Assembly (NCBI GenBank): GCA_947451105.1 | Contig: CANFXY010000010.1 | Span: forward strand, 1-36,096 | DNA: 36,096 bases | Direction of reading: 5' to 3' | Source of the DNA: Bacteroidota bacterium | Lineage (GTDB): Bacteria > Bacteroidota > Bacteroidia > NS11-12g > UBA955 | Shown here: piece by piece, positions 25,164 to 31,153 of the stretch | Position numbering within the stretch: position 1 is the stretch's first letter | How the letters are laid out: each line of letters starts with the position of its first letter | Notes under the pieces: model-generated | The model's database searches: none | The model's input: the letters and a program-made list of their open reading frames with translations, nothing else | What the model was told of the DNA's origin: nothing | Translations under genes and position numbers: made by a program

Positions 25164-27236
25164 TTACCAAATAATCACTCTTTGATCAAGTGGGATCCAC
25201 ATTTTATCGCCTTCTTTTACGCCAAATGCTTCATAGAATTCGTTTAAGTGTTTAAGTGGGCCATTGATTCTGTATCTAGCCGGAGAATGAGGGTCGGTTT
25301 GTAATCTGTTTCTTAATTCTTCGTCTTTGATGTTGTTGTGCCATACTTGAGCCCAACTTAAAAAGAAACGTTGTTGCCAAGTAAATCCATCAATTTTAGC
25401 TGGTTCAGACTTGCCTTCAAAAGAACGTTTTAAAGCATAATAAGCAAGGGTTAAACCACCTAAGTCTGCAATATTTTCTCCTATTGTTAGTTCTCCATTT
25501 ATATTTACTCCTGTCATTGGTTCAAACGCACTGAAATAAGAGATATATCTTTTACCTAATGCATTGAAATTGTTAAAATCTTCTTTAGACCACCAATTTC
25601 TTAAATTACCAGTTTCATCGTATTGAGCACCTTGGTCATCAAAACCATGGGTAAACTCATGTCCAATAACAGCGATAATACCGCCATAATTAATAGCATC
25701 ATCTGCATCTGCATTAAAGAAAGGTGCTTGTAAAATACCTGCAGGGAATACAATTTCATTATTCAATGGATTGTAATATGCGTTTACTGTTTGTGGTGAC
25801 ATAAACCATCTTTTTTTATCTACTGGCTTACCAATGTCATTTAACATTTTATTGTGGCTCCATAGGGTATTGCTAATTACATTGGCAATTAATTCTTTTG
25901 GGTTAACTTGAATGTTGGCATAATCTTCCCATTGGTCAGGGTAGCCAATTTTATAGGTAAAGGTAGATAATTTCTTTTTCGCCATCGTCTTAGTAGCCTC
26001 AGTCATCCAAGTTAATTTATCAACTCTTTCACTGTAAACTGCTCTTACGTTGTCAATCATTTCAGCTACTTTTTTCTTTGAAGATTCAGGAAAGTACTGT
26101 TTTGTGTAAAGTCTTCCTAAAATGTTTCCTTCTCCTAAACTTTCTGTTATGTCAATAGCTTGTATCTCTCTCTTTTTCTGTTCGTTAATTCCACTTTTTA
26201 TTTTACCATAAAAATTGAATCTTTCATTTTTAATGTTTTTTGGTAAATAGGTAGCAAATGCACCAACTAATTTGTAATAAGTGTATAATTTTAAGACTTC
26301 TACATCTGTTTTGCTTAATAATGTGTTTAGGCTTGTAAAGTACTTTTTGTTTTGTACTATGATTGTGTCAGAAATTACCCCTTGTTTGGCAGCAAATACA
26401 TTCCAATCGATGTTCTTGGAAAGTGATTTTAAATCTGCACTTGAAATTTTGTTGTAGGTTTTGATTGGGTCTCTTAATTCAACATTGCTTAATTGTATTG
26501 CGGCTAAAGCTGTTTCAAATTTTAAGATCGTTTCGCCAGCTTTACCTTTAAATTCTTTTCCAGTAAATGCCATTGTTTTATCAATGTGTGAAACAAACTC
26601 AGTACGAATCATTTTCATTCTTTCATCAGTTCCGCTGTAGTAGCTTTTTTCTCCTAAACTTAATCCACTTTGACCCCATTTAACCGCATTCATTTTGCTG
26701 TTTCTGTCATCGGCGTCAACATAAATTCCTAAAACACTTCCTACGCCAATTTTTTGAAGTTCACCGCTTACAGCAACCCATTCCTCTACTGTTTTAATAG
26801 ATTCTATTTGGTTTATATATGGTTTTAAAGGACTTAGACCTAGTTTTTCAATTTGAACTGTATCCATGAAAGAGCGGAACATATCAGCAATTTTTTGTTC
26901 ATCGCTTCCAGCTTTATTTTCTTTACTCTTAATGGTAGATTCTATAATGCCTTTAAGTTTAACCTCGCTGTTTTCTTTGTCAATAATTCCAAATGCGCCC
27001 CAGTTTCCTTCTGTTGAAGGGATAGGATTTAATTTTTTCCATCCACCGTTTGCAAAACTATCGAAATCATCTTGCGCCCTATATCGGCGGTCAAGTGAAC
27101 TGGTATCAAAACCAGGGATTTTGGTTTTTTCCATTACCACATCTGCTTTTTTTTCGGCTTTGGGTGCATTAGAGCAAGCTGCTGCAAAAACCGTAGATGC
27201 AAACAGCATAATATTTTGAAAGTTTAATCTAATCAT
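25164..27236 (-). CDS. M13 family (neprilysin/PepO-like) lipoprotein metallopeptidase
   Basis: Zinc endopeptidase that degrades short peptides outside the cytoplasm. The 690-residue product has a lipoprotein signal ending FAAAC (Cys21). The catalytic site is complete: HEFTH at 526-530 within IAVIGHEFTHGFDDQGAQYD, and the third ligand Glu587 with Asp591 in GENIADLGG. The substrate-binding block NAYYNPLNNEIVFPAGIL and the C-terminal HSPARYRINGPL are present. Length is normal for bacterial M13. Single gene on the minus strand, starting 39 bp from the divergent DUF1573 gene and ended by an intrinsic terminator. Confidence 0.95.
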   Translation of the reverse strand: MIRLNFQNIMLFASTVFAAACSNAPKAEKKADVVMEKTKIPGFDTSSLDRRYRAQDDFDSFANGGWKKLNPIPSTEGNWGAFGIIDKENSEVKLKGIIESTIKSKENKAGSDEQKIADMFRSFMDTVQIEKLGLSPLKPYINQIESIKTVEEWVAVSGELQKIGVGSVLGIYVDADDRNSKMNAVKWGQSGLSLGEKSYYSGTDERMKMIRTEFVSHIDKTMAFTGKEFKGKAGETILKFETALAAIQLSNVELRDPIKTYNKISSADLKSLSKNIDWNVFAAKQGVISDTIIVQNKKYFTSLNTLLSKTDVEVLKLYTYYKLVGAFATYLPKNIKNERFNFYGKIKSGINEQKKREIQAIDITESLGEGNILGRLYTKQYFPESSKKKVAEMIDNVRAVYSERVDKLTWMTEATKTMAKKKLSTFTYKIGYPDQWEDYANIQVNPKELIANVISNTLWSHNKMLNDIGKPVDKKRWFMSPQTVNAYYNPLNNEIVFPAGILQAPFFNADADDAINYGGIIAVIGHEFTHGFDDQGAQYDETGNLRNWWSKEDFNNFNALGKRYISYFSAFEPMTGVNINGELTIGENIADLGGLTLAYYALKRSFEGKSEPAKIDGFTWQQRFFLSWAQVWHNNIKDEELRNRLQTDPHSPARYRINGPLKHLNEFYEAFGVKEGDKMWIPLDQRVIIW

Positions 27237-27261
27237 GGTAGCAAGAATAAGAATTTTTTAT

Positions 27262-27269
27262 TAATTTCG
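27262..27269 (+). promoter_or_regulatory. Possible -7 box of the DUF1573 operon
   Basis: TAATTTCG differs from TAnnTTTG at one position and ends 6 nt before the ATG at 27276, so the transcript might be leaderless. No -33 TTG is visible in the 39-bp divergent spacer. Confidence 0.3.
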
Positions 27270-27275
27270 TCTCTT

Positions 27276-27743
27276 ATGTTCGATAAACGTTTAGTTTTTC
27301 TTATTCTAGCCACATTTTTTATTTGGAGTTCTAATCTTATCTATGCGCAAGGTCCAAATATAAAATTTGATATCGATACAGCTGATTTTGGCACCATAGC
27401 AGAAGGCGACTCAGTTGTTTTTGACTTTTGGTTTACCAATATTGGCACAGATTCAGCAAAAATAAACCAAGCTTATCCAGCTTGCGGATGCACCTATCCT
27501 TCATTTACTCAAGGTAAAATAGCTCCAGGTGCTAGAGGTAAGATTCATGTAGTTTTTCATAGCAAAGGATTTGGTGGACAATCCTTAGTTAAGGAAGTGA
27601 TAATAATAAATACAGGACCAGAGCGTTATGCTAGATTTAAAGTTAAGGTTGTTAACAAGGCGTTTCAAGAAGAGCTAGAAAACTATAAGAAACAGATGGA
27701 AGATTCTTCCAAGAAACCTAAGAAGAATAAAAAGAAAAGATAA
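27276..27743 (+). CDS. Exported DUF1573 protein
   Basis: Small secreted protein of 155 residues with a signal peptide (MFDKRLVFLILATFFIWSSNLIYAQ) and one Ig-like DUF1573 domain. Typical landmarks are DFGTIAEGDSVVFDFWFTNIG, ACGCTYP and APGARGKIHVVFHSKG. The function of DUF1573 is unknown; such ASPM/SPD-2/Hydin-like beta domains are often structural or protein-binding. The tail is highly charged, ending in a lysine-rich run (KKPKKNKKKR). It is the first gene of a plus-strand run of five, 9 bp before the reductase gene. Confidence 0.88.
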   Translation: MFDKRLVFLILATFFIWSSNLIYAQGPNIKFDIDTADFGTIAEGDSVVFDFWFTNIGTDSAKINQAYPACGCTYPSFTQGKIAPGARGKIHVVFHSKGFGGQSLVKEVIIINTGPERYARFKVKVVNKAFQEELENYKKQMEDSSKKPKKNKKKR

Positions 27744-27752
27744 TACAGAAGA

Positions 27753-28661
27753 ATGAAGAAGACGATACTAATAACAGGTGCAAATGGATTGCTTGGGCAA
27801 AAGCTTATAGATCTGTATTTAACAAAAAGTGATAAAATAGTAATTGGTAGTGGGGTAGGGCCTTGCCGTCATCCACTTAAAGACAATTTTAAATACATAG
27901 AACTGGATATTGCAAATGAGGAGCAGGTTAATTTTAAAATAACAGAAATTAAACCTGATACAGTTATAAACACTGCAGCAATGACCAATGTTGACGCTTG
28001 TGAGACTGATCATGAAGGGTGCGATAATTTAAATATAGATGCCGTTAGATATTTAGTGAATGCATGCAATACAGTTCATGCCCATTTAATTCATATTTCA
28101 ACTGATTTTATTTTTGATGGCACTCATGGACCATTAACTGAAAATGAAGTACCCAAACCTTTGAGTTATTATGGTTGGTCTAAATACAAAGGTGAACAAG
28201 AGGTCATCGATAAATGCAATTGCTATACGATTTTAAGAACAGTCTTGGTTTATGGTGTGGTTTCAGATATGAGTAGAAGCAATATTGTTCTATGGGCAAA
28301 AGGTGCATTGGAAAAACAACAACCTATGAAAGTTGTAAATGATCAGTTTAGAACCCCAACCTTGGCTGAAGACTTAGCTATGGGCTGTTATCTTTCCGAA
28401 TCAAAATTTGTTCAAGGCATATTTAATATTTCAGGTAAGGATTTTATGCGGATAGATGAATTGGTTTTTAGAGTAGCTGATTTTTTTGGATTTGATAAAT
28501 CTTGTGTGGCAACTACTAGTTCAGATGTTCTAAATCAAGCAGCTAAGAGACCGCCCATTACAGGTTTTATAATTGAAAAAGCACAGAGAGAATTAGGATA
28601 TGAGCCACACAGTTTTGAAGAGGGTTTGGCGCTTCTTAAATCACAATTATCTAATATTTAA
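27753..28661 (+). CDS. RmlD-like SDR-family sugar-nucleotide reductase
   Basis: NAD(P)-dependent extended SDR of 302 residues, closest to dTDP-4-dehydrorhamnose reductase (RmlD). Visible are the nucleotide-binding GANGLLG (9-15), VINTAAMTNVDACE, HISTDFIFDG, the catalytic YYGWSKYKGE (Tyr and Lys) and VNDQFRTPTLAEDLA. No rmlA, rmlB or rmlC is nearby, so the true substrate is uncertain and rmlD is not assigned. It lies 9 bp after the DUF1573 gene and 3 bp before fluC. Confidence 0.85.
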   Translation: MKKTILITGANGLLGQKLIDLYLTKSDKIVIGSGVGPCRHPLKDNFKYIELDIANEEQVNFKITEIKPDTVINTAAMTNVDACETDHEGCDNLNIDAVRYLVNACNTVHAHLIHISTDFIFDGTHGPLTENEVPKPLSYYGWSKYKGEQEVIDKCNCYTILRTVLVYGVVSDMSRSNIVLWAKGALEKQQPMKVVNDQFRTPTLAEDLAMGCYLSESKFVQGIFNISGKDFMRIDELVFRVADFFGFDKSCVATTSSDVLNQAAKRPPITGFIIEKAQRELGYEPHSFEEGLALLKSQLSNI

Positions 28662-28664
28662 TAA

Positions 28665-29027
28665 ATGAATACACTTTATGTCTTTTTAGGTGGCGGAATT
28701 GGTGCAACTTTAAGATATTTGGTTCAATTTTTAATTGGAAAACACAATGGTACGGATTTTCCATTTAGTACATTTATCACGAATGTTTTAGGCTGTTTTT
28801 TAATTGGTGTATTAGCAGCTCTGGTAATTAAGTATAAATGGAATGAGCAAATGGTTTTATTTATAATTACAGGTGTTTTGGGCGGATACACAACCTTCTC
28901 TTCTTTTGCATTAGAATTTGTGAATTTGATTAAAAATAATCAATTACTTACTGCTTTCATTTACATGGGGCTGAGTAATATCTTGGGTTTGGTTCTATGT
29001 GGATTTGGATTTTATTTATCAAAATGA
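28665..29027 (+). CDS. crcB: Fluoride channel Fluc/CrcB
   Basis: Fluoride-specific ion channel that works as an antiparallel dimer in the inner membrane and protects against cytoplasmic fluoride. At 120 residues with four hydrophobic helices it has the normal size. Motifs are GGGIGATLRY (9-18), TNVLGCF with the conserved Asn40, and GGYTTFSSF with the pore phenylalanines at 78 and 81. The start is 3 bp after the reductase stop, leaving no room for a fluoride riboswitch at the gene. Its TGA overlaps the ATG of the next gene (ATGA). Being a single copy, it should form a homodimer. Confidence 0.95.
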   Translation: MNTLYVFLGGGIGATLRYLVQFLIGKHNGTDFPFSTFITNVLGCFLIGVLAALVIKYKWNEQMVLFIITGVLGGYTTFSSFALEFVNLIKNNQLLTAFIYMGLSNILGLVLCGFGFYLSK

Positions 29028-30289
29028 GAGTAAAACATTTCTTAATTTGTCTAATCTTCGTTTTTTCGTCGCAGACGATACTTGGGCTTCAGATTTTGAT
29101 ACCAATGAATCTAACCCAGAAGGATCATTTAAAATCCTATGGCATTGCCTATTGGATATTAAGTAAGGGTGGTGAGGTGGATTGGCTTCTGAATTATGAG
29201 GGAGGTAGTTTTCTCTTTAATTTTGATGTTGCCTATGAAAATGAATGTAAAATAAGGGGCGTTAGCTACGAAGTGATTACCGAGAGCAAAGCAAACTCAA
29301 TTCACGCAGAAATATCAAATCCAGAGGTGAATATGGAGACTGTAAAGCTTTTGAAGTCACCAAAGATAGCTGTGTATACCCCCAAGAATAAACAACCTTG
29401 GGACGATGCAGTTACCATGGTCTTGGAGTATGCAGAAATTCCCTATGACAAGGTATTTGATGATGAAGTATTAGAGGATAAATTAATTACCTATGATTGG
29501 CTTCATTTACACCACGAAGATTTTACTGGTCAATTTGGAAAGTTTTGGTATAGTCATAGAAATGCACCTTGGTATATAGAAGATGTTAGTGCAAATGAAG
29601 CTTGCGCAGCAAGACATGGATTTACAAAAGTGTCTCAACTAAAATTAGCTGTGGCCAAAAAAATTAGAGATTTTTGCCTAGGTGGTGGTTTCTTATTTGC
29701 AATGTGCAGCGCTTCAGATACCTATGATATTGCTTTGGCTGCTGATGGAATTGATATATGTGAAACCATGTTTGATGGCGACGAGATGGATCCTAATGCC
29801 CAAGAGAAAATTAATTACAACAACACCTTTGCCTTCAAGGATTTTTTATTGGAAACCAATCCAATAGCTTACGAACATGCTAGCATTGACAACACATTGG
29901 GTCATATGGCAATTACCGAGAGCAATGACATGTTTAATTTGTTTGATTTCAGTGCAAAATGGGATGTAGTTCCTTCTATGCTGTGTCAAAACCATTCTCA
30001 ATCAATCAAAGGATTTATGGGTCAAACAACAGCATTTAAAAAACAATACATTAAAAGTGAGGTGTTGATATTAGGGGAGAATAAAGCATTGGATGAAGCC
30101 AGGTATATTCATGGTAATATGGGCAAGGGTACTTGGACATTTTACAGTGGACATGATCCTGAAGACTATCAGCATTTGATAGAAGAGCCACCAACCAACT
30201 TAGCACTTTTTCCTAATAGTCCAGGTTATAGACTGATTCTCAATAATATACTATTTCCAAGTGCTAAAAAGAAAAAATTAAAAACTTAA
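29024..30289 (+). CDS. Exported protein of the family often labelled asparagine synthetase B (label doubtful)
   Basis: The 421-residue product has a signal peptide (MRVKHFLICLIFVFSSQTILG) and belongs to a conserved Bacteroidota family that databases often name asparagine synthetase B. The sequence does not support that. There is no N-terminal catalytic Cys2 of the glutaminase domain and no SGGxDS PP-loop, and an exported location is wrong for AsnB. What is visible is LLNYEGGSFLF, HLHHEDFTGQFGKFW, the nucleophile-elbow-like GGGFLFAMCSASD (Cys228), LCQNHSQSIKGFMGQTTAF and YSGHDPEDYQH (His377). These suggest a class-I-glutamine-amidotransferase/ThuA-like hydrolase fold. ATG 29024 is preferred over 28997 because it yields the signal peptide and the ATGA overlap with crcB. 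Confidence 0.75.
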   Translation: MRVKHFLICLIFVFSSQTILGLQILIPMNLTQKDHLKSYGIAYWILSKGGEVDWLLNYEGGSFLFNFDVAYENECKIRGVSYEVITESKANSIHAEISNPEVNMETVKLLKSPKIAVYTPKNKQPWDDAVTMVLEYAEIPYDKVFDDEVLEDKLITYDWLHLHHEDFTGQFGKFWYSHRNAPWYIEDVSANEACAARHGFTKVSQLKLAVAKKIRDFCLGGGFLFAMCSASDTYDIALAADGIDICETMFDGDEMDPNAQEKINYNNTFAFKDFLLETNPIAYEHASIDNTLGHMAITESNDMFNLFDFSAKWDVVPSMLCQNHSQSIKGFMGQTTAFKKQYIKSEVLILGENKALDEARYIHGNMGKGTWTFYSGHDPEDYQHLIEEPPTNLALFPNSPGYRLILNNILFPSAKKKKLKT

Positions 30290-30302
30290 ACTATTTTTTA
30301 AT

Positions 30303-30310
30303 TATATTTG
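30303..30310 (+). promoter_or_regulatory. -7 box directly before the PspC-like gene
   Basis: TATATTTG is a full TAnnTTTG match and ends only 4 nt before the ATG at 30315, so a transcript from it would be leaderless or nearly so. No -33 TTG is seen at the normal distance. Confidence 0.4.
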
Positions 30311-30314
30311 AATA

Positions 30315-30533
30315 ATGCTAATTTTTAAATCATTAATTGAACAAACCGCTTACGGCGTTTGCACCCAAATTGGTGAAAAAATTGGATTAAGTACGCGTAG
30401 AATAAGGATGTTTTTTATTTATGCGAGTTTTTTAACCTTGGGTTCACCTGTCATTATATATATGATTTTGGCTTTTTGGTTTAATATGAAAAACTATGTA
30501 AGAGAAAAAAGAACTGCAGTTTGGGATCTTTAA
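30315..30533 (+). CDS. Short PspC-domain membrane protein
   Basis: The 72-residue product is the short form of the PspC domain found in Bacteroidota. YGVCTQIGEKIGLSTRRIRMFFIYASFLTLGSP is followed by one membrane helix (VIIYMILAFWFNM) and a basic, cytoplasmic-type tail ending VWDL. PspC in enterobacteria senses envelope stress with PspB; these lone short versions have no known partner and none is present here. The gene follows the previous one by 25 bp but has its own near-perfect -7 box. Its TAA overlaps the stop of the convergent sprT-like gene inside TTAA. Confidence 0.85.
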   Translation: MLIFKSLIEQTAYGVCTQIGEKIGLSTRRIRMFFIYASFLTLGSPVIIYMILAFWFNMKNYVREKRTAVWDL

Positions 30534-31153
30534 ATTTCTTTTTCTATAACCTCTACTTTACTTATTCCACTTACTCTATATTCTTTGTTGTTCGGTTGTT
30601 CAAAACACTGATACCAGCTTCGGAGTTTTTTGCCCTTAATAAATACTCTGCCGGTTTCTAATTTGAAATATGACCCTTCACTTATTTGTTCCAAAAATAC
30701 TTTCTGATCTTTGTCATAAAGTGCAAGCACTTTCATAAGATTTTTGTCACTGCAACTGCTTGCAGATGGATCGTGCATATAGTTTTTTAATGCCCCTTGA
30801 ATATCGCTTGGCAATTGATGATGCATAACAATAGGATGCAATAAGACTTTAAATTCTTGTTTCCATTCTTTGCCATGCGGATCAATATTGTTCCTGAATT
30901 TTTCAAAAGCGACCAAATGTGCTACTTCATGAAGAAAAGTAGTTAAGAATGCATATGGATTTAAGTCTTTATTTACAGTAATTCTATGGTAATTATCACT
31001 GCGCATTGGAGAGCGGTAATCACCATATTTGCTTGATCTGGGTTTATTAAGCTTTAGCTGAACTTTATATTTTATTAATAAGTCAACAACATATGCCTCT
31101 GTTCCATCTGGAACAAACTTTTTAATTTTATTTTCTAATTCAGCTCTAGTCAA
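30530..31153 (-). CDS. SprT-like zinc metalloprotease-fold protein
   Basis: The 207-residue protein has the SprT-like HExxH site (HEVAH, His75, Glu76, His79) and a following HGKEWK that supplies the third ligand region, as in SprT/Spartan domains. The bacterial function is poorly known; eukaryotic Spartan cleaves DNA-protein crosslinks. The C-terminal 70 residues (YFKLETGRVFIKGKKLRSWYQC) resemble the small beta domain of the family. Translation must begin at TTG 31153: the codon two positions upstream is TAA, and the first internal Met would delete the beginning of the domain. It is the last gene of the purK-purE-DUF3109 run, 24 bp after DUF3109. Confidence 0.85.
   Translation of the reverse strand: MTRAELENKIKKFVPDGTEAYVVDLLIKYKVQLKLNKPRSSKYGDYRSPMRSDNYHRITVNKDLNPYAFLTTFLHEVAHLVAFEKFRNNIDPHGKEWKQEFKVLLHPIVMHHQLPSDIQGALKNYMHDPSASSCSDKNLMKVLALYDKDQKVFLEQISEGSYFKLETGRVFIKGKKLRSWYQCFEQPNNKEYRVSGISKVEVIEKEI

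Follow-up and report, generated by a model that had tools for sequence, protein, structure and literature searches.

A phylum-wide exported protein family of Bacteroidota, distinct from asparagine synthetase B, with a predicted class I amidotransferase-like core and an invariant cysteine

The locus considered here lies in a 36,096-nucleotide stretch of Bacteroidota DNA (positions 1 to 36,096 of contig CANFXY010000010.1, assembly GCA_947451105.1; hereafter the window) and raises the question of what its exported product is, given that, according to the initial annotation, the family usually goes by the name of asparagine synthetase B. The exported family protein is not an asparagine synthetase. 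Its second residue is Arg rather than Cys, the SGGxD motif of a PP-loop is absent, and no AsnB model of Pfam or NCBIfam appears among the matches of 96 family sequences. The fold is also different, with neither an Ntn-hydrolase nor a PP-loop domain present in the AlphaFold2 model or among its fold matches, and the protein is exported. The initial annotation had read the product as something other than asparagine synthetase B and had described the AsnB hallmarks as missing, and both statements hold; the likeness consists in the name alone, as that annotation gave it. A protein named 'asparagine synthetase B' also figures in a study of Bizionia, where it drops in an iron-regulator mutant (PMC9478572), and its possible link to the present family is the shared name.

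The family likewise falls outside the profiles that might have named it. The search of Pfam and NCBIfam with the window protein gave no family match, and scans of the 96 sequences (the window protein and 95 relatives) against the same collections returned scattered weak matches, none of them convincing. The HMMs of the class I glutamine amidotransferases (PF00117) and of ThuA (PF06283) matched no family member at E values up to 10, and solved structures searched by sequence yielded no convincing match. Neither Pfam nor NCBIfam has a model for this exported family, despite its conservation. The features of the locus are collected in Table 1.

Table 1. Features of the family gene and its neighbours (window coordinates, except for the upstream TPR genes, which are given by locus)
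Feature	Coordinates	Strand	Basis or remarks
crcB (fluoride channel), neighbour outside the family	28665..29027	+	CrcB match, E 6.7e-29
Gene of the exported family	29024..30289	+	421 aa, stop within coordinates; ORF translation
Signal peptide, residues 1-21 (end approximate)	29024..29086	+	Model helix, conservation, cleavage-like site; next domain starts at 29087
N-terminal alpha/beta domain, residues 22-110	29087..29353	+	Invariant Q32, H35, Y39, G40, W54, N57, G61
Class I amidotransferase-like / ThuA-like core, residues 111-416 (predicted)	29354..30271	+	Model and structural matches
Loop H161-L-H163-H164-E165-D166-F-T-G169-Q170	29504..29533	+	After core strand 3; conserved
Cys228 codon, predicted nucleophile	29705..29707	+	Between strand 223-227 and helix 230-239
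Invariant Q322 and H324	29987..29995	+	Alignment
His377-Asp378-Pro379-Glu380, predicted general base and carboxylate partner	30152..30163	+	All invariant
C-terminal tail P-S-A-K-K-K-K-L-K-T, residues 412-421	30257..30286	+	Fixed length, basic
Upstream TPR genes	L322:5476-7341, L320:4871-6784, L178:1984-3864		Other-class loci

The reading frame and its signal peptide are as first described, with 421 residues and a hydrophobic N-terminus. Values of dN/dS between 0.008 and 0.033, in the pairs with measurable dS, indicate very strong purifying selection on the frame, which identifies it as a real gene. The signal peptide is modelled by AlphaFold2 as a hydrophobic helix (residues 2-16) and is the least conserved region of the whole protein in the 96-sequence alignment; the hydrophobic stretch ends immediately ahead of the first strand, ILIPM, and in relatives an A-x-A-like site directly precedes strand 1. 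One relative, L173 (protein start 1414), carries a twin-arginine (Tat-type) signal, SRRTFLKQAG, whereas the other relatives have ordinary signal peptides. Just 3' of the family gene, positions 30315-30533 encode a 72-residue PspC-like ORF slightly below the Pfam cut-off, and an Rfam scan of positions 26500-31000 gave no match.

The AlphaFold2 model of the family protein (pLDDT 94.8, pTM 0.91) comprises an N-terminal alpha/beta domain followed by a larger core. Structural matches of the core (residues 111-416) reach Z scores of 10-12.8 at about 3-5 Å rmsd over 176-234 residues. They include the middle domain of GH42 (Z 12.8 against the family model), ThuA-like chains (1t0b, Z 12.5, 196 aligned residues, 3.4 Å; 4jqs, Z 11.9; 4pxy, Z 11.8; 4e5v, Z 10.9) and the C-terminal domain of Bt1761 (8aa2_G, Z 12.2). 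Homoserine O-succinyltransferases (6mtg, 7cbe and 2ghr; Z 11.4-11.9, 215-234 residues aligned) score no better than the ThuA-like chains, and the Cys-dependent amidotransferase subunits 2iss_D, 2nv2_D and 1qdl_B lie at Z 10.5-11.2. The fold guessed from the sequence, class I amidotransferase or ThuA-like, is what Foldseek and VIA-align return, and this predicted core fold is well supported. The N-terminal domain, modelled alone (residues 21-114), reaches a pLDDT of 96. Its nearest fold is the C-terminal domain of UreE (Z up to 7.8, 66-75 residues), a likeness confined to this domain; with Z below 8, it may reflect just a common ferredoxin-like arrangement and is too weak to show a relation.

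Comparisons of the family profile with alignments of ThuA, DUF4159 and PF00117 built here were not significant. In these non-significant comparisons, the best local stretch for both ThuA and DUF4159 was the elbow, where the family sequence IRDFCLGGGFLFAMCSASDTY stands opposite ThuA LNRFIQAGGGWLGIHAAADTE; Cys228 thereby faces a His, and the sampled ThuA proteins carry His (GiHaA) at this place. Ahead of the last helix, the ThuA consensus end fYT.lGHt...y stands against TFYxGHDPEDY in the family. DUF4159 (PF13709), which has a similar elbow stretch, occurs in the window's genome (L271, G000:C1:76354-76929) and in 27 of the 30 genomes of the relatives set.

Residue conservation was counted in the alignment of the window protein and its 95 relatives. 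Fifty-six columns are invariant in the 96 sequences, and 26 of the invariant residues are polar; the set includes Q32, H35, W54, N57, D128, H161, H163, H164, E165, D166, Q170 and C228, and also D235, D244, Q322, H324, H377, D378, P379, E380, S399, R403, N407, N408 and T421. The initial annotation had singled out Cys228, within GGGFLFAMCSA, and His377, within YSGHDPEDYQH, as a possible dyad. Both motifs are found at these residues, and both residues are conserved in 96/96 sequences, Cys228 being the sole invariant cysteine column. His377 is accompanied by Asp378 and Glu380, and these two, like H161-x-HHED and Q322-x-H324, do not vary in any of the 96 sequences. The two findings that the initial annotation had named as refuting its reading, an Ntn-hydrolase or PP-loop domain in the model and an unconserved Cys228, are both absent.

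The positions of these residues in the AlphaFold2 model are consistent with an active site. At the fourth core strand, the succession of strand 223-227, Cys228 and helix 230-239 follows the pattern of a nucleophile elbow, and His377 falls after strand 369-374 and ahead of the last helix, 400-413. In the class I amidotransferase-like fold, the active site is located at the C-terminal edges of the strands, and in class I amidotransferases the oxyanion hole occupies the position matching the HHED loop, after core strand 3. Nineteen of the core invariants lie at such edges against 9.3 expected, a twofold excess reached in 5 of 302 circular shifts, with the strand-edge segments picked by hand from the model. 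Two departures from the usual pattern are seen: the elbow reads AMCSA rather than G-x-C-x-G, and in H-D-P-E the Glu follows the His by three residues (H377 to E380) rather than by two, as in the usual HPE.

We hypothesize that the family protein works in the periplasm or envelope as an exported Cys-His enzyme of the class I amidotransferase-like superfamily, either a hydrolase or an acyl transferase, with a substrate in the envelope, a reading whose chances we judge to be about even and whose chemistry and substrate we infer. In such an enzyme, His377, oriented by Asp378 or Glu380, would activate Cys228 in a presumed dyad; Cys228 would then attack a substrate carbonyl, whether of an amide, a thioester or an ester, and the resulting acyl-enzyme would be released by water, as in a hydrolase, or handed to an acceptor, as in a transferase. 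The HHED loop together with Q322 and H324 may line the pocket, which the N-terminal domain may help to form, and the basic K-T tail could dock to the membrane, to a partner or to the protein's own pocket.

The same residues could also be read as those of a ThuA-like, metal-assisted enzyme of sugars or glycans, in which H161, H163, H164, E165, D166, H324 and H377 would bind metal or sugar and Cys228 would be structural or a ligand. In favour of this possibility, the closest structural matches include ThuA-like chains, with 1t0b near the top of the range, and the GH...Y signature is common to both; five of the six residues of H-L-H-H-E-D are also invariant, an unusual degree of conservation in an oxyanion loop. 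The sampled ThuA proteins, however, place a His opposite Cys228, an invariant cysteine at the tip of an elbow best fits nucleophile chemistry, and the PF06283 profile is unmatched throughout the family; we consider the metal-assisted reading somewhat improbable.

The C-terminal tail is kept with unusual precision. Among 176 distinct sequences, 175 stop exactly ten residues past LNNxLF, and the terminus is K-T in 174 and R-T in one. The terminal Thr is encoded variously by ACC, ACT, ACG and ACA, so selection acts on the protein. In the AlphaFold2 model the three final residues are disordered (pLDDT below 50), and a disordered end kept to its last residue across the phylum suggests that the carboxyl end may be recognised. 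L166 alone departs from the standard tail; there the reading frame extends beyond it, possibly through a frameshift.

The gene neighbourhood varies with lineage. In the window, the gene is coupled to crcB as had been proposed, the crcB TGA lying in an ATGA shared with the family start, and among 195 family loci, some of which repeat a genome, 38 have crcB immediately upstream in the same orientation, most of these being from the window's own order. This linkage is weak as functional evidence because it is lineage-local. In Bacteroidia the upstream gene changes by lineage, and the neighbourhood there, with a DnaB-like helicase, an ABC-type permease, a peptidyl-prolyl isomerase and further genes identified by eye, was dropped as a clue to function since its arrangement follows lineages. 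Many loci of other classes instead have, immediately upstream, a gene for an exported TPR protein (about 610-670 residues), and an ATGA-type 4-base overlap joins the TPR and family genes in four of them (L178, L319, L320 and L322, the L319 protein being grouped by position and look only). The upstream TPR proteins that were scanned contain TPRs of a generic kind, similar to the repeats of YbgF and BamD.

The fixed disordered tail and the linkage to exported TPR proteins would suit partner binding, and a protein that retains the fold for binding or assembly rather than catalysis, with a glycan, peptidoglycan or an envelope protein as its partner and the tail as a contact, has a precedent in the ThuA-like C-terminal domain of Bt1761, which binds levan (PMC7618045). 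We regard this reading as unlikely: 26 invariant polar residues, including every expected catalytic residue, are more than binding usually requires.

The neighbourhoods compared contain no conserved synthase neighbour, which bears on whether the protein might be a true glutamine amidotransferase subunit with its synthase partner encoded elsewhere. Its fold is that of PdxT and TrpG-type subunits and its Cys and His are conserved, yet it is exported, away from ATP and glutamine, and matches PF00117 in no member. Neither free glutamine nor ATP is expected beyond the cytoplasm, which makes a glutaminase that supplies a synthase unlikely, and we give the subunit reading very little weight.

The description of a conserved exported family is borne out by relatives in most sampled Bacteroidota genomes. 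The gene is present in 38 of 39 close genomes; among good genomes, 226 of the 252 from the window's class have it, as do 206 of the 291 from the phylum. It is nearly always single-copy, although a few genomes have two, and no paralogue was found in the window's own genome. None of the sampled members shown for families f23 and f34 carries it, and it is missing in part of f16, f37 and f42. In one genome (G557:C53:3634-4894) the family member is in three pieces, probably a pseudogene or an assembly error.

Relatives outside the genus share 47-69% identity, more than a core purine enzyme of the same genomes, and those in other classes are about 48-59% identical to the window protein. In a direct comparison with twelve other-class genomes, the family protein showed 50-59% identity, against 33-39% for the window's PurK-like enzyme in the ten where it was found, and the window's exported M13 peptidase was found in none of the twelve. 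A tree of 99 rows separates Bacteroidia from the other classes by one branch with support 100, as predicted by inheritance from a common ancestor. Among the best 80 matches listed in the genome scan, all are Bacteroidota by title save L128, whose record has no phylum in its title, and L135, a MAG titled 'Alphaproteobacteria'. The L135 copy groups among Bacteroidales copies in the tree, and the record is likely mislabelled or contaminated. Searches of phages, plasmids and viral contigs found no relatives.

Phylum-wide occurrence, export and a copy number of mostly one are also traits of type IX secretion system (T9SS) parts, and the protein could in principle be one of them. Its distribution, however, does not follow that of PF17116, the T9SS Plug, which occurs without the gene in several families and is missing from six genomes tested that do have the gene. 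Membership was rejected on these grounds, and we find a T9SS role scarcely credible. Porphyromonas gingivalis PG2092, a 419-residue protein found in all then-sequenced Bacteroidetes except Bacteroides (PMC1887533), is alike in length and distribution; it was rejected as a relative, being the T9SS Plug (DUF5103), a different Pfam family. A link to aerobic respiration was considered as well. COX1 occurs in 27 of 27 family-positive genomes tested, and families f34 and f58 lack both COX1 and the gene; the link is not clean, since other COX1-positive families lack the gene and rumen Bacteroidales (L114, L131) carry it.

Exported proteins usually diverge fast. Such constraint on an exported protein points to a core step of Bacteroidota envelope biology. 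We tentatively extend the Cys-His enzyme proposal, at rather less than even chances, to a phylum-wide exported cysteine enzyme from the Bacteroidota ancestor that would carry out an undescribed envelope reaction, its K-T tail being a recognition element of a new kind, for docking or self-gating. Cys228 offers an immediately testable nucleophile, and the protein is a possible narrow-spectrum target.

Compared with known systems, the family shares with class I glutamine amidotransferases (PF00117; PdxT, TrpG, GuaA) the fold, a Cys elbow at the fourth strand and a late His followed by an acid; it differs in being exported, in lacking G-x-C-x-G, in having HDPE instead of HPE, and in the absence of an HMM match and of a synthase partner in the loci seen. 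The homoserine O-succinyl/acetyltransferase MetA (6mtg, 7cbe, 2ghr, 2vdj) gives the longest structural overlap, 215-234 residues, and performs acyl transfer with a Cys-His-Glu set on a class I amidotransferase-like fold; it is cytoplasmic, has no sequence match to the family and differs in its N-terminal part. ThuA and ThuA-like proteins (PF06283; 1t0b, 4jqs, 4pxy, 4e5v) have in common with the family the core fold, an Asp-Thr/Ser soon after the elbow and the GH...Y signature, but the ThuA proteins sampled carry His where the family has Cys228, and the family, unmatched by their HMM, has an extra N-terminal alpha/beta domain and the K-T tail. Bt1761 is likewise an exported Bacteroidota protein, and its C-terminal domain has a ThuA-like fold, although there it is the binding domain of a surface lipoprotein with another domain arrangement; levan is bound by this domain of a Bacteroides surface protein, a reminder that the fold need not mean an enzyme (PMC7618045).
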